64,000 bases of DNA from Miscanthus floridulus (taxonomy: Eukaryota > Streptophyta > Magnoliopsida > Poales > Poaceae), in assembly GCF_019320115.1 (NCBI RefSeq), contig NC_089591.1:61389798-61453797 (forward strand), written 5' to 3'. Under the pieces are notes generated by a model. The model did no database searches. It was given only the letters and a program-made list of their open reading frames with translations, and was not told where the DNA came from. Both the position numbers and the translations under genes were made by a program. Positions 18,122 through 35,285 of this stretch are shown piece by piece; within the stretch, counting starts at the first letter, position 1; each line of letters begins with the position of its first letter.

Positions 18122-19114
18122 ATGGCCTCTCAGCTTTGTTCACAAATAAAGTTAAGCAAAGTACTTGTTAGGAGGAGGTTTCATGAGAGTGGACAGACCA
18201 ATTTGCCAAGGTCTCTTCACTGGAAACCCTTGCGATCAGGCCATTTTGAAAATCTTGTGCTGCGATGCACCAAGAATTTGTCATGGGAAACCTCTCTTCC
18301 ATATGCCTCTGCAGGCGATGATGGCAGTATCATCAAGGGAACAGGTGTTGTTGAACCTATTGATACAGAAGAAGCTCCACAGATTCCAATCCTCCGGAGT
18401 GATGAAGATGTTGTAGAGGTGAATAATGAACCTTCTTGGCAGCTAAAGGCATTTAAACTGCCAATGTGGCTACTAGGGCCTTCAGTTCTGTTGGTTACGG
18501 GTATAGTTCCAACTTTATGGCTGCCATTGTCTTCAGTGTTTCATGGTGCCAACATTGCTGGCCTTCTATCTCTAGTTGGACTTGACTTCATTTTTAATAT
18601 GGGAGCGATGCTATTTTTCCTTATGGCCGATGCTTGCGGCCGTCAAGAGAACAATATTTTGGACCTGAAAAGGCAGATCCCAATTTCCTACAGGTTCTGG
18701 AATCTGGCTGCTACCATAGTAGGCTGTATTGCTCCATTTGCCCTGTTTTTTGCATCCCGTAGGGGCACTCTGCAGCCACAACTACCATTCATTCCATTTG
18801 CAGTGCTGCTTGGACCATATCTTTTACTCCTGTCTGTACAGATGTTGACTGAGATGCTTACATGGCATTGGAAATCACCGGTATGGTTGGTAGCTCCAGT
18901 GGTTTATGAAGGCTATCGAGTACTACAGCTGATGAGGGGTCTCCAGTTAGCTGAAGAAATCAGTGCGCCTGGCTGGATGGTGCAAAGTCTTCGTGGCCTG
19001 GTATCCTGGTGGGTACTCGTCCTTGGAGTCCAATTGATGCGTGTTGCCTGGTTTGCTGGACTCAGTTTTGCTAGAAATTCAAGGTATGGGGAAAGTGATG
19101 ATATGAACCAGTAA
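18122..19114 (+). CDS. predicted plastid multi-pass membrane protein, function unknown
   Basis: It is an uninterrupted 330-aa frame. I chose the Met at 18122 (context ctataccATGG) because the upstream in-frame Met lies before the probable leader-intron acceptor at 18105. The first 60 residues are basic and Ser/Leu-rich with few acids, fitting a chloroplast transit peptide. An acidic loop follows (about 75-104). Six hydrophobic segments then lie at about 112-135, 145-168, 192-212, 221-245, 254-270 and 292-317. I do not recognise a named domain or catalytic motif, so no function is given. The frame is intact with a single coding exon. A broken antisense copy of codons 182-228 sits at 10136-10283. 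The 3' region to 19400 is T-rich UTR-like sequence. Confidence 0.82.
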   Translation: MASQLCSQIKLSKVLVRRRFHESGQTNLPRSLHWKPLRSGHFENLVLRCTKNLSWETSLPYASAGDDGSIIKGTGVVEPIDTEEAPQIPILRSDEDVVEVNNEPSWQLKAFKLPMWLLGPSVLLVTGIVPTLWLPLSSVFHGANIAGLLSLVGLDFIFNMGAMLFFLMADACGRQENNILDLKRQIPISYRFWNLAATIVGCIAPFALFFASRRGTLQPQLPFIPFAVLLGPYLLLLSVQMLTEMLTWHWKSPVWLVAPVVYEGYRVLQLMRGLQLAEEISAPGWMVQSLRGLVSWWVLVLGVQLMRVAWFAGLSFARNSRYGESDDMNQ

Positions 19115-20853: not shown

Positions 20854-23800
20854 TGTAACACCCCGGTGTTATGCCTGCATTTAGGCACTACAAATCATGC
20901 ATATCATGCATCATCAAGCATTCTAATCACACATGCCTAATCATGTAAATAACAACTGAAACATTGTTTTGAAACATTTGAAACATGTGTGAAACCTGAA
21001 TGTTGCATACCTTTGTTAGAATTGTTTTGCCCTGAATTTTTGCTTGCTAGGTTAGTAAAACTTATTTGGCTATCATGGTAAATCATCTAGAAATATTTAG
21101 TTCAATTTTTGAGCAAGGTTTGTATTCAAATTAATTCAAAATTTGGCTTCAAAAGTAATTTCCCAAAAATTAGGGTTTGGAGTTAAACATTGACTTTGAT
21201 TTTATAATTCAAAATCTAGAAAAAAATTGGCTTTGGTCATAACAGCAAAGTTGTAGAGAATTAAATTCTAATCAACTTTCATTTTTGGTACATTTTCAAA
21301 AGATGTCAATTTATTGCTCAAAATAATATTTGAAGATGGCATTTAAAAATTCCTTGAAAATATATTTGGAAAAGGCTTTTACCTCCTTCGCGGGCCGCCG
21401 CCTCGCTTCTGGCCCACGACCGAAGTCTGCCCAGCCAGCCTCCCGCGCGCGCCTCGCCTCGCCTCGGCCCAGCCCAGCCCAGCGCCGCACTGGCCTGCCT
21501 CCGCGCGCCTGCCCGCTGACGCGCCGCGCCGCGCGCCTGACCGCGGCAGAGCGTGCCCGCCGCGTGGCGGCCATGCGCCGTCGACGCCGCCGCGCGTCGC
21601 AGCCAGCCTGCGCCCGCGCCCACGCGCCCGCCTACACCTGCTGGAGCCGGTGCGCTCGCTCACTCCCTCCCGCGCTGCCTTCCCTCTCCGCCAGAGCCGA
21701 GCGCCCCCAAGCTCTGCCTTTCGCCGTGCCACGCACCCGCCGGCACAATTCGTCGCGGCTCCTCCACCTCGGTCGGCAATCACGCGCCCGCAGCTCTGCC
21801 TTGCCCTCCTTCAAGTTGTGCTCACGTTTGCGCCACCTGCCGAGCTCAGGTAGAGCCGCCTCAGCCTCGCCACCGATGGCCATGGCGCCGCCGTGCTCGG
21901 CCACCATGGAAGTCACCTTTCCTCTCTTCTCCAGCCCCGCCTAGCTGCCCTACCGCATTCGCCATCTTCTCGCGTATCCCGTGCGCCCGCCAGCTCGCCT
22001 TGCCATGGCCAGAGATGGCCGCCGGCCTCGTGGCCGAGCCGCACCACCGCGCCAGCGCAAGCGCCGGCATGGCCCTGCCTCAGGCAGCTAGGCCGAGCTA
22101 GGCCATGGGTCGATGCCTTGCCGGGCCGTCTTCCCCTCCCTTGCGCTCGGGCCGCGCAGGCCAAAAGCGGCCGTGGGCCAGCTGATTTCAGCGGGCTGGC
22201 CCAGTAGCGTTTGAATAAATGGTTTTCAATTTATTCTTTATTATTTGAAATTTGAAATGGTTTGAAAAATGTTTGGGTACTCAAAGTTGTTCCAAATCTG
22301 TTGAAATAAATTTGTCTAGGTTCCTTATCATCAGATCTACTTGGGAAAAATTGTGCATGTCATTTTTGAGATACTTTGCTGTAGAATTTTATTTACTCAT
22401 GAATATTGCTGATAACTTGAAAAATATGTAGAAAAATCTATAGGCTTCAGAAAAATATGATTCTAAGTTTGTTAATCTTCTTATGTCATGTATTTCCTAG
22501 GAAAAATATGTTTCATGCATGTGCTGTGGGAAAATTTTGAGGTGTAGTTCAACTACCTTTAATAGCTGATTTTTGTTATTTTTGCTAGAGAGCAAACTTT
22601 ATATAAAACATGCATGTGATAATTTTTGTACAGTCATTGTATACTATGAAGAACATAGGAAAAATACTAACTCTGTTGTTTGACACTTTTCACAGTACAA
22701 AGTATTTTCATGTACAAAATCATGCCATAGCTTGTGATTTTTGTGTAGGCTAATCCACTCATTCAAACACCATGAAAATCTGATGGTAGACTTCTTAGGG
22801 TAATACTATGCTGTAGTAATTTTCTAAGATTTTTCTAAGCAAGAAAAATAGAGATTGCTATTCAAACCTATTATTAATTAGGGTTTAATTAAGCATTCTT
22901 TATGTGTTTAAGAAATTAGCAAAGCTTTGGTGTATCTTTGAAGCGTTTCATAAGATATGTTGACTTAACATATTAGTAGTAGAAGAGAATGCAGTAGATA
23001 ACATGTGCTTGTAGTATATTTTCTTGGATGATGTTGACTACCTTGCATTCAAACATATCCATTGTATTCATCTCATCCGATGCACCGATTGCATAAGCAC
23101 TTACGCACATTGCATCATACAGGATCACAAACCAAGAACCCAGTCATCATACCCGAGGAGCCCGAGGAGCAGCTCGAGGTGCAGCAGCAGGAAGTGCCAG
23201 AAGCCGACGAGGAGGACGTTGAGGAACTTCCGGAGTGCCCTGATCACCGTCCGAGCTCCTTCGAGAGAGGCAAGCTCCGGAGCATTTTTCTCCCGGTTTG
23301 CAAATTATTTAATTAAATGCTTTACTTTAATTGATGCATTATGTTTAGGAGTTGTTTGCAACCGTTGCTGCATTATACCTTGTTTACCTTTGTTATACTA
23401 TATCCTTGTTACCTTGGTATCCGCAGTCGAGTCAATGCTTAGCTGGCTTAGACCGGTAGAAGTCGGGTGATTCCCTGTCACCTGCGAGCTATAGGTGGTT
23501 ACCTGGTTCTGCTGGGATGACTATGAAGTCATGGTATAACTAAGTGTTAAATAAAGTTGAGATTGGACGGAGACTTGCAGAGTTTTGGACTGTAGTGCTT
23601 TCCATCTGTGTCGATTAAGGACCGACCGTTGTTGGGCCTCGAGTCATGTTGAACGCATGCCTTACATTTAGCTGACCGGATAAAGTACCTTCCGACCGTG
23701 AAGCTAGGAGATTTTTTGGGCCGAGTAGATTGCCCGCAACGCACTGTGATGGAGCAGGTGTGGTAGGACATGGGGGCGGGATGATAAGACCAAAGTGCAG

Positions 23801-24744
23801 TCGGTCGGCCCCCGGGTACATGTGGTTCCTAGCAAACTCGAGATTTCTGGAAAGTTGACTCGGTGATCAATATCTCACTTTAGCGGGTGAGTGAGGTTTG
23901 TGTAAGGAATAAATCACCAGCTGGTTAGGAATCGATTCGAATCGCCATCGCTCCTGGATAGTGAGCACTTGACTTGAGTTACTTCATCGTAGTAAATGTT
24001 TATGGAACACTTGGACAGTTATAATGAATATGACAGTATGGAAGTTGTTTAATGATCATGGGTTATTATTATCTGCTTAATCACATGGTTACTCTAGTAT
24101 AGGTGCAAACCTAGTCGACAGGTTAATACTAATTAACTTGGCAATCATGCTTTTAAAAAGGTTCTTGAAATGCTAAAAATGCTTCTTTTGTAAATGAGTC
24201 AGCTACCCTACTATAAAGCCCTTCATAATCCTTGGTGTCATTTATTTTTGGTTATGTCGGGTAAGTCTAGCTGAGTACCTTCTCGTACTTAGGGTTTTAT
24301 TCCCACTTGTTGCAGATGGGCAGATATATTACGGCTACTGTATCAACTGCCTTTATCCTGCGATGGGTGATGCTTAGGACCATGGGCATGGTCATTCCTT
24401 ACGTCTCGTCTGATGCTTTTGTTGGAGATGATCATTCGCTGGCACTATATTTAAACTCCGCGTGAGTGTGTGTGTGGTTTGAACAAATGACTTCTGCTAC
24501 TTTTATTCGAACTGGTTTTGTAATAACTATATTGAAACTCTGATGTATCTGAGACTGTGAACTTTTATGTAATATGTGATGGTGACCGCTAAACTTATTA
24601 CGATCTTGGCTGGAATGGAAGTTGGTTTGAAATCCGTCATGATTTCACGGACTATCGGGTTATACAGGCTTAAGTTTGCTAAATCGTCTGCTTTGCCGGA
24701 TGATTTTCTTACTTAATTTCGTATAATTGGTCAGTTCTGTTACA
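20854..24744 (+). repeat. 5' LTR, 3.9 kb
   Basis: It starts TGTAACACCCC and ends CTGTTACA, 3891 bp. A strongly GC-rich block (about 21370-22200) is surrounded by AT-rich sequence. In its first 470 bp I count about 11 differences from the 3' LTR, 9 of them transitions. Open frames in the GC block on both strands are composition artefacts. Confidence 0.95.
23140..23316 (+). other. acidic, coding-like segment inside the LTR
   Basis: A short open stretch reads P-E-E-P-E-E-Q-L-E-V-Q-Q-Q-E-V-P, then L-P-E-C-P-D-H and S-S-F-E-R-G-K. The same frame is open in the other LTR (33699-33850) with only a few substitutions. A catacag|g-like acceptor precedes it at about 23121. Whether it is translated is unknown. 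Confidence 0.4.
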
Positions 24745-24746
24745 GC

Positions 24747-24758
24747 TGACATCAGAGC
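24747..24758 (+). promoter_or_regulatory. primer binding site
   Basis: TGACATCAGAGC lies 2 bp after the LTR. It differs at two positions from TGGTATCAGAGC, the site complementary to initiator-Met tRNA used by many plant LTR elements. Confidence 0.75.
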
Positions 24759-25533
24759 ATGGTTTAGCGTGTTACTGTTCACAAGTGTATTTAAAACAAA
24801 AAGGCATTTGGAAAATGTGATTTTCAAAATATAAAGTGTGCTAGTGATCATATCCTTTGTGTCCAGTTAAGGACTTTAGGTGGCTTAATTAAGTACTGAC
24901 TGGGGTTCTTGCATCATATTTCTCTTTCATCGCTCATACGGCGTGCTATTGTATGAGTGCCACTTGTTGAGTGGTAATGTATGGATCATTTGCCTCTACG
25001 CCTCGGTAAGTGTGAGTTGTGAGAGTATGATCGGATACACCGCCGATCTAGGGTGAATGCTTATATGATGCTGGAGTAATTACATGTTCTACGCATGTTT
25101 TACAAAGGTATCTCATGTATGGGTCTTCCGGTTGTTGAGGCGATGCCGTCAATAGGACGATGGTTCGGGTAGTTACTACCGTTGTACACGTATCTGGGGA
25201 TTCGTGTAGAACGTGTAGATAAAACTTTACTGCTTTTATGCATTCATTGGGAATTGGGCTGAAATGGATCTTCTGCAGGTACATAACAACGCTATCGTGT
25301 AGAACGTATTAGCTACGTATTTGAGAGATCGTTTGTATGCCACCGAATTCGTCGTTAGAAATTATTTATTTCCTAAGTTTGTGAGAACGTACGACACGTA
25401 CATACATCATCTTACTTGTGCATTTCATTCATATCATACATTCCTCCCCTTATAAATTGATTATCTCATTTTGATAAAAGTTGTATCACCTAAAATATGT
25501 TTCACCGGGGTAATGAAAGAACTTTTGCTACAG

Positions 25534-26523
25534 ATGGCCTGCACGAAGCAGACCGCCCGTAAGTCCACCGGAGGAAGAGCACCTCGACGTCCGTTGGCCC
25601 TGAGGGAGCACCGCACCATGGACACCTTCTTGAGCGAGTTTGGCATGCTGACTTTGCTTTGGAGAGTGCTCCATGATGTGGGGTACCCAGAGGGTCAAGA
25701 GCCGGTGTACTCTTGGAATGAGAGCCAGTTAGCAGAGGATGGACTCATAGTGGTGGAGATCACGGTTCCTGCTCTCGGTGATGCTACAGATTGGGATGGT
25801 TGGCATTTGGAGTTTGAGGGTCACACTCCAGCTGAGGGTGTAGAGGGAGCAGCCTTCCATGTCATCAGGGACATTATGAGTAGATTTCCTAGTGAGCTTG
25901 CAGCAGCTCTAGCTGGCACTTTTCCTAGGGATGATCCTCGTGATGCCATTTGGGTTCAGCCTCAGGGAAGTGCATTGGTCAGAGGTCCAGCTGAAGGATA
26001 GGCTAGCGACAACCAGGCAATGAGTGCTATGTTCGCCACCATCAGAGCGTATGAGGATCTCGAGAGTACCTACTGGACTTTGACTGGCTTGCGTAGTAAG
26101 GATAAGCTAAAAGGGAAAAAGCAGAAGAAGAGATAGTCCCGTGCTATAGCTAGCTTGCAGGAGCGGTTGGCTGATATGAACTTACAGCGAGATCAGGCGG
26201 TTGAGAGAGGTGATAGAGCTATGTAGCGAGTGCATACGTTGACTCAAGCCAACAACAATGTAGACCGCATGATTGGACAGTTGGTTCAGGAAAGGAATGA
26301 AGCCTGGAACGCAAGAAACCTTTTGCTGCAGAGGGTCGATGAGCCAGAGGAATACAACAACAACCTGCACGAGGAGTTTCACGCGCTCTATAATGGGGTT
26401 GGCCCAGATGCTCCACCGAACGCCGCTGACATGGACATCGACAACGACAATGAGGATGAGCCTGTAGTTTCACCTGGGGGCGATGGTGATGTCTCCGATC
26501 CCAACGATGGCCCCAAGGAGTAG
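25534..26523 (+). pseudogene. retrotransposon extra ORF with histone H3-tail mimic
   Basis: This is a 330-codon frame between the 5' LTR and gag. The first residues are M-A-C-T-K-Q-T-A-R-K-S-T-G-G-R-A-P-R-R. Against histone H3 this keeps T3, K4, Q5, T6, A7, R8, K9, S10, T11, G12, G13, A15, P16 and R17, and changes R2 to C, K14 to R and K18 to R. No histone fold follows. Instead there is a globular-looking part (about 27-150, strands around V-V-E-I-T-V-P and W-H-L-E-F-E-G-H-T, then an Ala-rich helix), a Lys-rich patch, a coiled-coil-like part (about 205-265) and an acidic tail (M-D-I-D-N-D-N-E-D-E). Stops interrupt it at 25999-26001, 26134-26136 and 26224-26226, all TAG; the frame is otherwise unbroken to the TAG at 26521-26523. 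Function is unknown; chromatin mimicry is inference. Confidence 0.87.
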
Positions 26524-26886
26524 GCTAGTTGCCTTGCGCTAGTATCTAGGTCCTGTCGTGATGACCTTTCTTTTGTTGGCATGTAACCTATTGTATGTTG
26601 CTTCGAACGTATGAGACTTGGCATGTGGTTGGAACTGATTTTCAAGTGCGATATCTAAACGTATAAAAAGTCCAGTGTATGTATGCTGACAATTTGATTG
26701 TATGGACGCGATGTTTGCCGTTGAAGTAATTTGATTAAGTGCTGTTGTTTTACTTGGATGCGATTGTTGTGCCTCTGTTTTATTGTATGAATTTATTCTC
26801 TCTAGTAAATTTAGTATGGCATAATTTTTCCTTCACTCGCAATTATTACAGCTTCACTCAATCTTACTTGTTGCTGAAATATGCAG

Positions 26887-28194
26887 ATGACAAACACTCG
26901 CCGAACCACGTATGAGGCCGCTGAGCCCGGTGCTAATGGTGCGGGGACTGGTGGTGGTGGTGGTGGAAACCACGGCAACAACAATGAGCCTCCCCATGAA
27001 TCGCATTTGCCACCTCCTCCCCTGTTTACCCTCGAGATGTTCCTCGCACAGCTGCTCGGGAGTCAGCGCAATGCGGAACAATCCCAGAAGAACATGGAGG
27101 ATTTTCTACGCACCATCGCCAACAACGTTCAACGTGGTAACAATCAAGGTGGTGGCATGGGAGTGAACCAATATAGCAGCTTCAAAGATTTCATGGACAC
27201 CAGGCCGCCAGTATTTAAGGAAGCAACAGAGCCACTCGATGGTGAGGAATGGATCAACACGATGGAAGATAAATTCCGTGTGTTGAGGATGACTGAGGTG
27301 CTGAAAATGGAGTATGCTGCACTTCAATTGCAGGGACCGGTGGGAATGTGGTGGAAGCACCATCGCACCACCTTCCCTCCAAATGCTCAGATTTCTTGGA
27401 GAGAGTTTGCTGAGGCCTTCCATGGAGTCTATATTCCACTCGGACTGACCGAGATGAAGTTGGGAGAGTTTCTGGCGTTGAATCAGGGCACCAAAACCGT
27501 GACGCAATACCTGCATGCCTCCAACAACTTGTGTCGCTATGCTCCCGACATGGTTGACACAGATGCTAAAAGAATAGCCAGTTTCAAGAGGGGACTCAAT
27601 CCAAAAATGATGAAGCATGTTGGTACCAACAACCGCATCAGATTCAATGACTTCATCAGCGACTGTCTGAAGCAAGAGAAGAATAACAACGCCAGCACTG
27701 TAGCCAAGACACGCAAGAGAGCCTTTGAAGGTGGTCTGTCCCAAGCTAGAGCACCTATGGGAGGTCGTCCTCCATATCGCCCATCGGCACCTGGCAGTAG
27801 ATTCCAGCCACCTCAGCAAAGAAGTCAAAATTCCCGTGGACCTTAGAAGCCGTACAAGATGGCAGTACAGCCCAACAAAGCAGCCGCAACTGTGGTACAA
27901 GGCAGTTCCAAGGGAGCTGTGGGATCTACCGGGACAGTGAGAGGACCCTGCTATAACTGTGATCAACCCGACCATTTCTCAAGGTTTTGTCCGTATCCAC
28001 CCAAAAAGAAGTAGCAGACTTATAATGCTAGAGTGCATAGTACGACAGTGGATGAAATTCCAAAGGGAGAGCCCGTCACTGCTGGTAAGTTTCTTGTCAA
28101 CGAAAACCCTGCAGTTATTCTATTTGATTCTGGATCATCGTATTCTTTTATGAGTCAAGCATTTGCATAGAAACATGAACAACTATGCACAGAA
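26887..28194 (+). pseudogene. gag and protease of the chromovirus
   Basis: Gag starts at the Met at 26887 (M-T-N-T-R-R-T), directly after aaatatgcag. A Gly-rich linker leads into the capsid domain (E-E-W-I-N-T-M-E-D-K-F, L-Q-G-P-V-G-M-W-W-K, F-N-D-F-I-S-D-C-L). A C-x2-C-x4-H-x4-C zinc knuckle (C-Y-N-C-D-Q-P-D-H-F-S-R-F-C) begins at 27949. The protease active site F-D-S-G-S-S is at about 28123-28140. In-frame TAGs at 27844-27846, 28012-28014 and 28168-28170 interrupt an otherwise open frame; the last follows S-Q-A-F-A, where Gln is usual. Confidence 0.9.
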
Positions 28195-29740
28195 TTGGGT
28201 TATGGTTACCATATAAGTTCAGCAGGGGCTGATGTTTTGACCAACTGGATGGTTCGAGGGGCAACCCTTGAATTAGGTAGCAGGAAGTTCCAAGTGAACT
28301 TGATAGTTATGCCTGGGTTAGTCTTGGATGTCATTATAGGGATGAATTGGATGAAGGATTGGAGAGCAGTCATAGATACTGGAAGTCGAGTACTTACCCT
28401 TAAGGATCCCCTAGGTGAGGGTACTTTCCAAGTACCATTGCCACGGAGAACAGACCTGATAAGTGTTACATGTGCTACGGCAGTCATTCCTATTCATCAG
28501 ATTCTGGTAGTGTGTGAATTCCTGGATGTATTCCCGGATGAGCTACCTGGTCTTCCGCCAGATAGGGAGATTGAGTTTGGAATTGAGCTAGTCCTCGGAA
28601 TAGCTCCGATTTCAAGGAGACCCTATCGGATGCCTCTAGATGAGTTAGCTGAGCTGAAGAAGCAATTAGAAGAATTATCAAAAAAGGGGTTTATACGACC
28701 AAGCAAGTCTGAATGGGGATGTCCTACCTTATTTGTGAAGAAGAAGAAAGAGGGCACGTTGAGAATGTGCATAGATTACAGGCCACTCAATGCTGTGACC
28801 ATCAAGAATAAGTATCCCTTGCCACATATTGATGTTCTGTTTGACCAATTATCCAAGGCCAAGGTGTTCTCAAAAATAGATTTGAGATTCGGTTATCATC
28901 AGATCAAGATTAGGCCTTAGGATATACCGAAAACTACATTTTCCACTAGATACGGGTTGTATGAGTATCTTGTCATGTCCTTTGGCTTGACAAATGCTCC
29001 TGCATACTTTATGTTTTTTATGAATACAGTTTTCATGCTAGAATTGGATAAGTTTGTGGTAGTGTTCATTGATGATATTCTGGTGTACTCCAAGAACGAG
29101 AAAGATCACAAAGAGCATCTAAGAACTGTTTTGACCAGACTAAGGGATCATCAACTGTATGCTAAGTTTAGCAAATGCGAATTCTAGTTGAAGGAAGTTT
29201 CTTTCCTTGGTCACATTCTGTCAGAGAATGGAGTTTCAGTCGATCCAAGTAAGGTGCAAGAAGTTATGAATTGGAAAGCACCGACCACAGTTCCTGAGAT
29301 TAGAAGTTTCTTAGGACTAGCCGGTTATTACCATCGCTTTATACCAGACTTTTTGAAGATTGCAAAACCGATGACAAGTCTCCTACAGAAGGACCACAAG
29401 TTTGTGTGGATAGAGGAGTGTGAAGCAGCTTTCCACACTTTGTGGAAACTGTTGACCACTGCTCCTGTTCTAACACAACCAGATATCAAGAAACCATTTG
29501 ATATGTTTTGCGACGCATCGAAGACTAGATTGGGCTGTGTTCTTATGCAAGAAAGGAGAGTCATTGCTTATGCATCACGACAATTGAGAAAGCACGAGGT
29601 CAACTATCCAACACATGATCTTGAACTTGCTGTAGTTGTGCACGCCCTAAAAATTTAGAGACATTACCTACTTGGTAATGTGTGCAATATTTTTACGGAT
29701 CACAAGAGTCTTAAGTATATCTTTACCCAACCAGAGCTAA
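28195..29740 (+). pseudogene. reverse transcriptase and RNase H of the chromovirus
   Basis: The frame continues in phase with gag. The RT blocks are [17 protein letters not shown], the K-I-D-L-R block (the family has a second Ser/Arg-rich turn here), [10 protein letters not shown] and the catalytic F-I-D-D at 29065-29076. The RNase H has F-C-D-A-S and T-H-D-L-E-L-A. TAG stops occur at 28918-28920 (family Gln), 29185-29187 and 29656-29658 (both family Trp). A small insertion near 29735 shifts the frame at the end of RNase H, before R-W-L-E-L-I-K-D-Y. Confidence 0.9.
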
Positions 29741-29743
29741 CAC

Positions 29744-31373
29744 ATGAGACAGCGTAGATGGTTGGAATTGATCAAGGATTACAACTTGAATGTGCAATAT
29801 CATCCTAGAAAAGCCAATGTAGTGGCAGATGCTTTGAGCAGAAAGTCACATTACTTGAATGTGCAGCCATTACTTGAAGATGGGTTCGATCTAATGCATC
29901 CTGCTGTGTTGCATAGTATTCAGATTAGTTGCTTTTTAGAGAGTAAGATAATAGAAGGCCAGAAAACCGATAAGGGGATATTCCACATCAAAGAGAAAAT
30001 AAAAAAAAGCCATCTCAACACTTCAAAGTGGATGAACAGGGCGTGTTGTGGTTTGACGACCGTCTTGTGGTTCCCAAGGATCGAGAGCTTAGGAATAAAC
30101 TCATGGATGAAGCTCACCTTTCTAAGCTATCTATCCATTCTAGAAGTAGTAAGATGTATCAAGAACTAAGATATCGCTATTGGTGGACCAAAATAAAGAA
30201 AGAAATTACAACATATGTTGTCAGATGTGACACATGTTGTCGAGTGAAAGCAATTCACATGAAGCCTGCCGGTATGTTGCAACCCTTATCAGTCCCTAGT
30301 TGGAAGTGGGATGATATCAGTATGGATTTTATCACGGGTTTGCCCACTACTCAAAAGGGACATGATTCGATTTGGGTAATTGTGGACCGTCTTACCAAGA
30401 CCGCTCATTTCTTGCCTGTCAAAATAGATTATCGACCACCTCAATATGCCGAGAAATTGTGAGGTTGCATGGTATACCAAAGACCATAGTATCTGATAGA
30501 GGCTCACAGTTTACGACTCACTTTTGGAAACATTTACATAAAGGTTTAGGAACTAGTTTGATTCGTAGTACCGCTTATCATCCTCAGACAGATGGTCAGA
30601 CTGAACGAGTGAATGCTATTTTAGAAGATATGTTAAGAGCCTATGTATTGTCTTCTAAGGGATCATGGGAGTCATGGTTACCGTTAGCTAAGTTTTCTTA
30701 TAATAATAGTTATCAAGAAAGTATTAAGATGGCTCCATTCGAAGCTTTATATGGCAGAAAATGTAGAACACCATTGAATTGGGTCGAGCCTGGAGATAGA
30801 AGGTATTATGGCATTGACTTTATAGAAGAAGCTGAGAAGAAAGTTCATATTATTCAGCATAATATGAAAGCGGCCCAATCACGCCAGAAAAACTATGTAG
30901 ACAGAAGAAGGAGACCCCTTATGTTTGAAGTTGGTGACTATGTTTATCTGAAAGTCACGCCAATGAAGAAAAAAAGGTTTGGAGTCCGAAGAAAGCTTGC
31001 CGTGAGATTCGTAGGACCATACAAGATCTTGGAACAAAAAGGCCCGGTAGCCTACAAGTTAGAGTTACCTGAGACAATGAGCACCGTTTTCCTAGTTTTT
31101 CATGTATCATATCTTAAGAAATGTTTGCGTGTTCCAGTAGAAAGAATAGAACCTCGAGGTATCCAACTCAAATTAGATTTGGTGTATCGTGAACAACTAG
31201 TTCGGGTGTTAGACACTAAGGAACGTGCTACTCGGAATAGTGTGGTGAAAACATACAAGATACAGTGGGATCATCATGATGAGGGAGATGCAACTTGGGA
31301 AACAGGAAAGTATCTACAAAAAGCTTATGAAGAATTTTATAACAAATGGTTCGTAACCCAAATCTCGGGATGA
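29744..31373 (+). pseudogene. integrase with C-terminal chromodomain
   Basis: Three frames carry the pieces: 29744-30000, about 30000-30462, and from about 30455 to 31373. The zinc-binding H-H-C-C region (H-L-S-K-L-S-I-H to C-D-T-C-C) precedes the DD35E core: Asp at 30325, Asp at 30495 and Glu at 30603, so 35 residues separate the last two. The junction at about 30460 lacks some residues and changes frame. The end (about 31198-31355) is a chromodomain-like stretch, V-L-D-T-K-E-R-A-T-R-N through Y-K-I-Q-W to A-T-W-E-T. In chromoviruses this domain is thought to steer integration to marked chromatin. Confidence 0.88.
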
Positions 31374-31382
31374 GATTTTTAT

Positions 31383-31395
31383 AAGGGGGGAGGGA
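31383..31395 (+). promoter_or_regulatory. polypurine tract
   Basis: AAGGGGGGAGGGA stands immediately before the 3' LTR and would prime plus-strand DNA synthesis. Confidence 0.9.
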
Positions 31396-34300
31396 TGTAA
31401 CACCCCGGTGTTATGCCTGCATTTAGGCACTGCAAATCATGCATATCATGCATCATCAAGTATTCTAATCACACATGCCTAATCATGTAAATAACAACTG
31501 AAACATTGTTTCGAAACATTTGAAACATGTGTGAAACCTGAATGTTGCATACCTTTGTTAGAATTGTTTTGCCCTGAATTTTTGCTTGCTAGGTTAGTAG
31601 AACTTGTTTGGCTATCATGGTAAATCATCTAGAAATGTTTAGTTCAATTTTTGAGCAAGGTTTGTATTCAAATTAATTTAAAATTTGGCTTCAAAAGTAA
31701 TTTCCCAAAAATTAGGGTTTGGAGTTAAACATTGACTTTGATTTTATAATTCAAAATCTAGAAAGAATTTGGCTTTGGTCATAACAGCAAAGTTGTAGAG
31801 AATTAAATTCTAATCAACTTTCATTTTTGGTATATTTTCAAAAGATGTCATTTTATTGCTCAAAATAATATTTGAAGATGGCATTTAAAAATTCCTTAAA
31901 AATATATTTGGAAAAGGCTTTTACCTCCTTCGCGGGCCGCCGCCTCGCTTCTGGCCCACGACCGAAGTCGGCCCAGCCAGCCTCCCACGCGCGCCTCGCC
32001 TCGCCTCGGCCCAGCCCAGCCCAGCGCCGCGCTGGCCTGCCTCTGCGCGCCTGCCCGCTGACGCGCCGCGCCGCGCGCCCGACCGCGGCAGAGCGTGCCC
32101 GCCGCGTGGCGGCCATGCGCCGTCGACGCCACCGCGTGTCGCAGCCGGCCTACGCCCGCGCCCATGCGCCCGCCTACACCTGCTGGAGCCGGTGCGCTCG
32201 GTCACTCCCTCCCGCGCTGCCTTCCCTCTCCGCCAGAGCCGAGTGCCCCCAAGCTCTGCCTTTCGCCGCGCCACGCACCCGTCGGCGTAATTCATCGCGG
32301 CTCCTCCACCTCGGCCGGCAATCACACGCCCATAGCTCCGCCTTGCCCTCCTTCAAGTTGTGCTCACGTTTGCGCCACCTATCGAGCTCAGGTAGAGCAG
32401 CCTCAGCCTCGCCACCGATGGCCATGGCGCCGCCGTGCTCGGGCGCCATGGAAGTCACCTTTCCTCTCTTCTCTAGCCCCGCCTAGCTGCCCTACCGTAG
32501 TCGCCATCTTCTTGCGTATCCCGTGTGCCCGCCAGCTCGCCCTACCATGGCCGGAGATGGCCGCCGGCCTCGTGGCCGAGCCGTGCCGCCGCGCCAGCAC
32601 AAGCGCCGGCATGGCCCTGCCTCAACCAGCCAGGCCAAGCAAGGCCGTGGGCCGACGCCTTGCCGGGCCGTCTTCCCCTCCCTTGCGCTCGGGCCGCGCA
32701 GGCCAAAAGCGGCCGTGGGCCAGCTGATTTCAGCGGGCTGGCCCAGTAGTGTTTGAATAAATGGTTTTCAATTTATTCTTTATTATTTGAAATTTGAAAT
32801 GGTTTGAAAAATGTTTGGGTACTCAAAGTTGTTCCAAATCTGTTGAAATAAATTTGTCTAGGTTCCTTATCATCAGATCTACTTGGGAAAAATTGTGCAT
32901 GTCATTTTTGAGATACTTTGCTATAGAATTTTATTTACTCATGAATATTGATGATAACTTGAAAAATATGTAGAAAAATCTATAGGCTTCAGAAAAATAT
33001 GAATCCAAGTTTGTTAATCTTCTTATGTCATGTATTTCCTAGGAAAAATATGTTTCATACATGTGCTATGGGAAAATTTTGAGGTGTAGTTCAAGTACCT
33101 TTAATAGCTGATTTTTGTTATTTTTGCTAGAGAGCAAACTTTGTATAAAACATGTATGTGATAATTTTTGTATAGTCATTGTATGCTATGAAGAACATAG
33201 GAAAAATACTAACTCTGTTGTTTGACACTTTTCACAGTACAAAGTATTTTCATGTACAAAATCATGCCATAGCTTGTGATTTTTGTGTAGGCTAATCCAC
33301 TCATTCAAACACCATGAAAATCTGATGGTAGACTTCTTAGGGTAATACTATGCTATAGTAATTTTCTAAGATTTTTCTAAGCAAGAAAAATAGAGGTTGC
33401 TATTCAAACCTATTATTAATTAGGGTTTAATTAAGCATTCTTTATGTGTTTAAGAAATTAGCAAAGCTTTGGTGTATCTTTGAAGTGTTTCATAAGATAT
33501 GTTGAGTTAACATATTAGTAGTAGAAGAGAATGCATTAGATAACACGTGCTTGTAGTATATTTTCTTGGATGATGTTGACTACCTTGCATTCAAACATAT
33601 CCATTGTATTCATCTCATCCGATGCACCGATTGCATAAGCACTTACACACATTGGATCATATAGGATCGTAAACCGAGAACCCAGTCATCATACCCGAGG
33701 AGCCCGAGGAGCAGCTCGAGGTGCAGCAGCAGGAAGTGCCAGAAGCCGATGAGGAGGACGTTGAGGAACTTCCGGAGTGCCCCGATCACCGCCTGAGCTC
33801 CTTCGAGAGAGGCAAGCCCCGGAGCATTTTTCTCCCAGTTTGCAATTATTTAATTAAATGCTTTACTTTAATTGATGCATTACGTTCAGGAGTTGTTTGC
33901 AACCATTGCTGTATTATACCTTGTTTACCTTTGTTATACTATATCCTTGTTACCCTGGTATCCGCAGTCGAGTCAATGCTTAGCTGGCTTAGACCGGTAG
34001 AAGTCGGGTGATTCCCTGTCACCTGTGAGCTATAGGTGGTTACCTGGATCTGCTGGGATGACTATGAAGTCATGGTATAACTAAGTGTTAAATGAAGTTG
34101 AGACCGGACGGAGACTTGCAGAGTTTTGGACTGTAGTGCTTTCCGTCTGTGTCGATTAAGGACCGACCGTTGTTGGGCCTCGAGTCATGTTGAACGCATG
34201 CCTTATATTTAGCTGGCCGGATAAAGTACCTTCCGACCACGAAGCTAGGAGATTTTTCAGGCCGAATAGATTGCCCGCAACGCACTATGCCAGAGCAGGT

Positions 34301-35285
34301 GTGGTAGGACATGGGGGCGGGATGATAAGACCAAAGTGCAGTCGGTCGGCCCCCGGGTACATGTGGTTCCTGGCAAACTCAAGATTCCTAGAAAGTTGAC
34401 TCGGTGATCAATATCTCACTTTAGCGGGTGAGTGAGGTTTGTGTAAGGAATAAATCACCAGCTGGTTAGGAATCAATTCGAATCGCCATCGCTCCTGGAT
34501 AGTGAGCACTTGACTTGAGTTACTTCATCGTAGTAAATATTTATGGAACACTTGGACAGTTATAATGAATATGATAGTATGGAAGTTGTTTAATGAGCAT
34601 GGGTTATCATTATCTGCTTAATCACATGGTTACTCTAGTATAGGTGCAAACCTAGTCGACAGGTTAATACTAATTAACTTGGCAATCATGCTTTTAAAAA
34701 GGTTCTTGAAATGCTAAAAATGCTTCTTTTGCAAATGAGTCAGCTACCATACTATAAAGCCCTTCATAATCCTTGGTGTCATTTATTTTTGGTTATGTCG
34801 GGTAAGTCTAGCTGAGTACCTTCTCGTACTTAGGGTTTTATTCTCACTTGTTGCAGATGGGTAGATGTATTATGGCTACTGTATCAACTGCCTTTATCCT
34901 GCGATGGGTGATGCTTAGGACCATGGGCATGGTCATTCCTTATGTCTTGTCTGATGCTTTTGTTGGAGATGATCATTCACTGGCACTATATTTAAACTCC
35001 GCGTGAGTGTGTGTGTGGTTTGAACAAATGACTTCCGCTACTTTTATTCGAACTGGTTTTGTAATAACTATGTTGAAACTCTGATGTATCTGAGACTGTG
35101 AACTTTTATGTAATATGTGATGGTGACCGCTAAACTTATTACGATCTTGGCTGGAATGGAAGTTGGTTTGAAATCCGTCGTGATTTCATGGACTATCGGG
35201 TTATACGGGCTTAAGTTTGCTAAATCATCTGCTTTGCCGGATGATTTTCTTACTTAATTTCGTATAATTGGTCGGTTCTGTTACA
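31396..35285 (+). repeat. 3' LTR, 3.9 kb
   Basis: It is 3890 bp with the same ends and internal layout as 20854-24744, and is followed by the target duplication ACTGT (35286-35290). Confidence 0.95.

Follow-up and report, generated by a model that had tools for sequence, protein, structure and literature searches.

ORF0, the additional open reading frame in front of gag in a Tekay-like Ty3/gypsy LTR retrotransposon of Miscanthus floridulus, starts with a close copy of the N-terminal tail of histone H3, and comparison of two lineages of the element family shows strong purifying selection on the codons of this tail. The tail recurs in relatives of the element, its lysine 9 (K9) is the best protected lysine of proteins that in part are nearly devoid of others, its codons resemble those of H3 genes in the same genome, and it is followed by a domain with the predicted fold of a dsRNA-binding domain (dsRBD). 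The reading to which we tentatively lean, without yet calling it probable, is that the tail may act as a selected, H3K9-centred mimic that would engage host H3K9 methyltransferases or readers of methylated H3K9 and thereby weaken silencing.

Organization of the element

The element spans positions 20854-35285 of the window (the whole stretch of 64,000 nucleotides that was analysed), with ORF0 between the leader and gag. Its features are:

20854..24744, forward strand: 5' LTR, termini TGTAACACCC...GTTACA, from the LTR alignment
24745..25533, forward strand: leader from the 5' LTR to ORF0, with 20 upstream ATGs
25523..25533, forward strand: candidate 3' splice site ttttgctacag adjoining the ORF0 ATG (putative splicing)
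25534..25587, forward strand: H3-tail-like N-terminus of ORF0, Met plus H3 1-17 with R2C and K14R, reading MACTKQTARKSTGGRAPRR here
25588..25626, forward strand: fast-changing linker, residues 19-31, pN 0.486 between lineages
25633..25923, forward strand: dsRBD-like domain, model residues 34-130, alpha-beta-beta-beta-alpha, from the structure model and Foldseek
25999..26001, forward strand: first in-frame TAG, with two more downstream, from reading of the frame
26002..26523, forward strand: rest of the ORF0 frame with basic patch, helical part, acidic end and final stop, from reading of the frame
26881..27846, forward strand: gag, PF03732 E 1.5e-14, ATGs at 26881 and 26887
28171..31373, forward strand: remains of pol with broken frames; protease, reverse transcriptase and C-terminal part of integrase recognised
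31203..31343, forward strand: chromodomain-like integrase C-terminus, PF00385 E 0.013, below the curated cutoff
31396..35285, forward strand: 3' LTR, from the LTR alignment

This is the layout of Tekay/Del chromoviruses, with LTRs, a 5-bp target-site duplication (ACTGT) flanking the element on both sides, and the order gag, protease, reverse transcriptase, integrase, as found in a pol domain scan that covered protease, reverse transcriptase and the C-terminal part of integrase. The LTRs are approximately 3.9 kb each and 96.5% identical (BLAST); they differ at 137 of 3892 aligned sites (K2P 0.036), which at an assumed rate of 1.3e-8 per site per year corresponds to an insertion age of about 1.4 Ma. 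Immediately 3' of the 5' LTR lies a primer-site-like sequence with an imperfect likeness to a tRNA-Met primer site. The integrase end scores 15.9 bits against PF00385 (cutoff 25.1), its nearest solved chromodomain is that of Clr4 (E 0.11), and a TWE plus R-x-T-R pattern, spotted by eye, matches the description of group II chromodomains in PMC3350952. As in other grass Tekay elements, the additional frame between leader and gag is distinct from gag-pol. An extra ORF before gag, which the earlier note had mentioned for some rice gypsy elements, is on record as the grass Tekay ORF0 in PMC3485330.

Copies were searched for in the 2.68-Gb assembly that contains the window. The ORF0 family is highly abundant, with 8615 and 7465 first-look candidates in two genome searches, and a search with gag returned 25,159 candidates, of which the best 150 matches were examined. 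Open frames of about 1510 codons contain dozens of these 150 matches, which suggests that in this genome the family is young or was active recently.

ORF0 of the window copy

The frame from 25534 translates as MACTKQTARKSTGGRAPRRPLALREHR..., and a PDB sequence search with its first 155 residues yielded 130 distinct matches at E up to 1. Each of the best 60 of these 130 is named as a histone H3 or an H3 peptide (lowest E 5.9e-5), in agreement with the H3-tail mimic that the earlier note had read from the letters, and these 60 cover residues 1-27 of the query only. No Pfam histone family was matched, and the absence of a histone fold behind the tail was thereby borne out as well (H3 matches among the best 60 of 130 end at residue 27). 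Positions 25534..26523 had been taken for one ORF; in this copy the frame is interrupted by three internal in-frame TAG stops, whereas ORF0 is open over 329 codons in 23 of the 40 sister copies fetched from the same lineage.

An unrelated domain, a coiled-coil-like part and an acidic tail had been expected after the H3-like start. The unrelated domain was recovered as an alpha-beta-beta-beta-alpha fold like that of a dsRBD in the structure model of ORF0 (residues 34-130), in which the tail is unstructured, and the acidic C-terminal end was measured in open ORF0 copies; a coiled coil is suspected for the helical part, with weak coiled-coil-like Pfam matches, below cutoff, in two relatives. A Foldseek search with the model gave a best E of 0.021 and nothing at 0.001, the absence of a fold from such structure-search lists being uninformative, and the Pfam dsRBD profile had no match in ORF0 at E up to 1 in the window or 0.1 in relatives. 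The closest counterparts among known dsRBDs are the C-terminal dsRBD of TRBP, dsRBD5 of Staufen, dsRBD3 of Loqs and DRB7.2, which bind proteins (as is in part apparent from the titles of their entries); the ORF0 domain differs from these protein-binding dsRBDs in lacking a Pfam dsRBD match.

Occurrence of the tail in relatives and genomic copies

Three protein searches gave 125 matches (best 120 taken), 3196 matches (best 120 taken) and 23 matches, together 193 distinct listed proteins. Among these and the window sequence, the tail is present in all 40 sequences that extend 20 residues or more beyond the domain anchor on its upstream side, matching at 10 to 17 of 17 positions; the other 154 of the 194 are uninformative, being cut, called from an inner Met or devoid of the anchor, and one of them, P0163, has the tail. 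The 40 tail-bearing sequences were assigned by eye to clades A (which includes the window), B, C, D and E. A likeness to H3 by chance is ruled out by the presence of the tail in 40/40 sequences extending upstream.

In the genome, the usual start of clade A is M-ARTKQTARKSTGGRAPR, i.e., H3 1-17 with K14R. Residues A1, K4, T6, R8, K9, S10, T11, G12, G13 and R14 are invariant in 41 clade-A copies (40 fetched copies plus the window), and residue 2 is Arg in 36 and Cys in 5 of them, which bears out the view of the earlier note that R2C is a later change. The same note had listed K14R and K18R as substitutions of the tail; K14R is fixed (81/81 genomic copies), but residue 18 varies between R, H, C and Q. 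Clade B is abundant in the genome, and all 30 fetched copies have the tail, with Ser at residue 17 in 28. In ten decayed copies of clades D and E, 11-14 of the 17 tail positions match, and all ten have both K4 and K9. Leu at Q5 prevails in clades C and D and protein P0127; the latter retains K14 as Lys, continues its match with QLAT and has Asp in place of A1.

Twenty genomic copies were also chosen by gag alone, disregarding ORF0, and 19 of them have the tail at the start of ORF0, matching at 16-18 of 18 residues; they were hand-picked down the best 150 of the 25,159 candidates and are near relatives (95-96% in gag) rather than distant gag families. Among the 19 tails, T6I and/or R8H occur in three, a stop at Q5 in two, and C or H at residue 2 in two; in the remaining copy (L146) there is no ORF0 at the expected place. 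The H3-like start is thus a feature of other family copies too (40/40 upstream-reaching sequences and 19/20 gag-chosen copies), and a recent capture limited to one copy is ruled out by the tails of the sister, clade-B and gag-chosen copies.

A stop at ORF0 codon 6 (Q5) recurs in loci L025, L134 and L136, by the codon table a change of CAG to TAG in CHG context, the pattern expected from C-to-T decay at methylated CHG sites. Possible H3 homology past residue 23 was seen in clade E (ATKAPRCKS) and clade D (RRKS), suggestive but ambiguous. A second H3-like stretch in the body of the protein (LALREHR versus VALREIR in H3), seen by eye, varies among clades and is not claimed. An alignment scan of viral and genome contig collections gave 30 and 32 pattern stretches, with no confirmed relative among them.

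Selection on the tail

Clades A and B were compared by mean NG86 counts, each of 24 clade-A copies being paired with each of 28 clade-B copies; all these copies have frames of 300 codons or more and were selected by protein likeness to the query of each clade; 17/41 A copies, 2/30 B copies and all 10 D/E copies were left out. Tail codons 2-18 show 1.2 replacement differences over 36.5 sites and 8.5 silent differences over 14.5 sites, i.e., pN 0.032 versus pS 0.585, and are thus under strong purifying selection between the two lineages. Elsewhere pN is 0.486 (linker), 0.315 (dsRBD-like part), 0.315 (residues 131-200) and 0.400 (remainder), and pS outside the tail is 0.74-0.78, so that the tail pS is the lower one; at 0.585 it makes recent homogenisation or re-capture of the tail unlikely. 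No run of identical majority residues shared by A and B is longer than that of residues 1-17, the next longest being 12. Fisher p values, from rounded mean counts of non-independent pairs, were 0.0013 (tail versus rest) and 0.005 (versus the dsRBD-like part), a significance that for a tail of 17 codons depends on about 10 changes averaged over such pairs. One 17-residue segment, starting at 234, scored below the tail; its columns are largely gapped and the low score was taken to be artefactual. Among clade-A copies alone, the tail is not exceptional, with ratios of 0.21 (41 copies) and 0.16 (23 open copies) compared with 0.18 and 0.13 for residues 1-155, and sampling by protein likeness biases these ratios low. 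At the sequence level, ORF0 shares with histone mimics a histone-tail sequence maintained by selection.

Lysines inside and outside the tail

The earlier note had called the contexts of both K4 and K9 exact. K9 is retained in 39/39 database proteins, but K4 is not the best protected residue, being retained in 27/39; the 12 proteins without it (Arg in 11, Trp in 1) belong without exception to clade C, of which P0188 retains K4. In the genome, both lysines are present in 81/81 copies.

In clade B, 23/28 open copies (approximately 307 aa; loci L065-L094) have no lysine past residue 18, which leaves K4 and K9 as the sole lysines of those proteins. Clade A has none in residues 19-130 (24 copies) and six past residue 18 in 19/24. 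The clade-C relative P0164 has a few lysines, so that it is in B and A that their near-total lack is most evident. For the gag and pol pieces of the window, K/(K+R) is 0.41-0.65. K14R and the varied residue 18 look like part of a protein-wide scarcity that spares K9 and, for the most part, K4. The clade-B lysine desert may itself be an escape from ubiquitylation.

Origin of the tail

The H3 genes of the genome were located with a canonical H3 query. Intronless H3 genes have GC-rich codons; in the nine intron-containing ones that were fetched, the Lys23 codon is followed by GT and the H3 likeness stops there, so that exon 1 encodes residues 1-23. At shared residues, clade-B tails and seven of the intron-containing H3 genes have a codon identity of 0.63. 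Recodings that follow the codon usage of ORF0 give 0.29 (sd 0.07), with 0/300 reaching 0.63, and clade B also exceeds its recodings for the two GC-rich intron genes (5/300 reach) and the intronless class (3/300). Clade-A tails come closest to the two GC-rich intron H3 genes (0.61 versus 0.31 recoded; 1/300), whereas the seven other intron genes are at chance level (177/300) and the intronless class is weak (22/300). These are six comparisons, uncorrected. Codon likeness supports a descent of the ORF0 tail from an H3 gene, the source most likely being exon 1 (residues 1-23) of an intron-containing gene, with the identity of that gene less sure.

Start codon and putative splicing

An in-frame ATG lies upstream at 25513, and its counterpart occurs in 2/40 sister copies, so that the first in-frame ATG in clade A is usually that of MARTK. 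CAG directly precedes the ORF0 ATG in 36/40 clade-A, 30/30 clade-B and 7/10 D/E copies. Without splicing, clade B has the upstream start MLMVQMARTK in 30/30 copies, which would hide the tail unless splicing or initiation favours MARTK. Given the 20 leader ATGs and the CAG at the ORF0 ATG, splicing that makes MARTK the first start is plausible. The gag ATG at 26887 likewise stands directly behind ...atgcag, an acceptor-like AG (26870-26889), which suggests that ORF0 and gag messages may arise by alternative splicing.

Possible roles of the tail

Plant retrotransposon silencing works through H3K9 methylation and DNA methylation, with SUVH and CMT3 forming the silencing loop. In the scenario to which we lean, a piece of a host H3 gene would have been captured as the first 17-23 residues of ORF0 and retained by selection as an H3K9-centred mimic. 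Removal of the initiator Met would leave a flexible N-terminus that exposes A1-R2-T3-K4 and A7-R8-K9-S10, with the dsRBD-like fold, the helical part and the acidic end as its carrier, and the exposed tail may engage the SUVH/CMT3 loop as a substrate-like ligand or decoy, which would weaken silencing of the element. With a little more reserve, we consider it possible that H3 exon 1 was turned into a dedicated methyl-acceptor or reader ligand: nearly all other lysines having been lost and K9 (mostly with K4) being the sole modifiable ones, the protein might serve as a soluble mock nucleosome tail that disturbs the H3K9/CMT3 loop or feeds the element's own chromodomain.

That chromodomain could also be the actual partner of the tail, with K9-methylated ORF0 linking integrase complexes or tethering them to K9-marked chromatin and so guiding integration. 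A chromodomain-like integrase end in the same element and the protection of K9 above other lysines would suit such a role, as would the fact that no partner of plant group II chromodomains had been found according to PMC3350952; we nevertheless regard it as rather unlikely, given that the PF00385 match is below cutoff and that in group II chromodomains, according to the same source, the first cage aromatic residue is missing and usually the third as well. The same conserved residues might instead recruit H3K9 or H3K4 machinery to the element, which would give it a heterochromatic niche where it is tolerated or would damp its activity, and the extreme abundance of the family (8615 and 7465 first-look ORF0 candidates) is in line with this; self-silencing, however, seems a weak long-term strategy, and we judge recruitment unlikely, even though the data do not distinguish it from a decoy. 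Decoy, chromodomain ligand and recruitment all fit the same data and are not separated by them.

Two further explanations dispense with mimicry. The H3 tail is basic, and the 5'aORFs of Poaceae Tekay elements are predicted to be nuclear (PMC11728184), so that the tail could be simply a nuclear-import or nucleic-acid-binding peptide of incidentally histone origin. Such a peptide would tolerate exchange of Lys and Arg, yet K9 is unexchanged in 39/39 proteins that are otherwise nearly lysine-free, and the non-basic T3, T6, A7, S10, T11, G12 and G13 are also retained between clades A and B, which makes this quite improbable. Retroelements are known to capture gene pieces, and the tail could be a functionless, neutral relic of a captured H3 exon; the heavily diverged silent sites and almost unchanged replacement sites of the tail contradict this, as does the fast divergence of the adjoining linker, and we give it hardly any weight.

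If the H3K9-centred mimic is real, an element that encodes, under selection, its own version of the tail on which silencing marks are placed would possess a direct arms-race device. The long-unexplained ORF0 of grasses would then have a function and group II chromodomains a candidate partner, and antibodies to the H3 tail or H3K9me may also detect a retrotransposon protein.

Relation to known systems

Histone mimics such as the influenza NS1 tail, the ARK motifs of G9a and LIG1, and EZHIP copy histone-tail contexts that are read or written by histone enzymes. Like these viral and cellular proteins, ORF0 carries a short histone-tail copy; theirs are short internal or C-terminal motifs, whereas that of ORF0 comprises 17 residues at the N-terminus, apparently descends from an H3 gene and belongs to a transposable element. 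EZHIP is termed an 'oncohistone mimic' in an abstract. Among the matches listed, as judged by titles and the starts of abstracts, no paper was found that describes an H3 tail in the ORF0 of a transposon, and prior mention in papers on RIRE3/RIRE8 or on extra ORFs is possible. Kumekawa 1999 reportedly deals with the former and Steinbauerova 2011 with the latter.

The ORF0 of grass Tekay elements is already known; its H3-tail start finds no mention in the papers listed, and the main texts of PMC3485330, PMC11728184 and PMC7264820 do not contain the word 'histone'. According to PMC3485330 and PMC11728184, an ORF0 or 5'aORF is present in grass Tekay-type elements including Retrosat2, RIRE3, RIRE8, ZMsat2, Sorsat2, maize Tekay and sorghum Sb7. 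As here, these elements have an extra ORF before gag and LTRs of >3 kb, and ORF0 is described from grasses only (PMC3485330). Published grass Tekay ORF0s, likened here by their descriptions rather than their sequences, were annotated as hydrolase-like or compared with DRBM proteins, and a weak dsRBD likeness is reported for maize and sorghum 5'aORFs in PMC11728184. The same paper describes the anti-silencing proteins of the VANDAL family, plant-transposon accessory proteins that counter host silencing, as is proposed for ORF0; they differ in giving sequence-specific protection from RdDM, with no histone mimicry mentioned in the passage on them.

Other open reading frames in the window

Both LTRs hold a near-identical 202-codon open frame, MAFKNSLKIYLEKAF... 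(21336-21944 and 31878-32486), possibly a chance product of the GC-rich LTR DNA. Upstream of the element, a 330-codon ORF at 18122-19114 has a weak match to PF24867 (DUF7733; 18 bits, cutoff 27) and is possibly a host gene.
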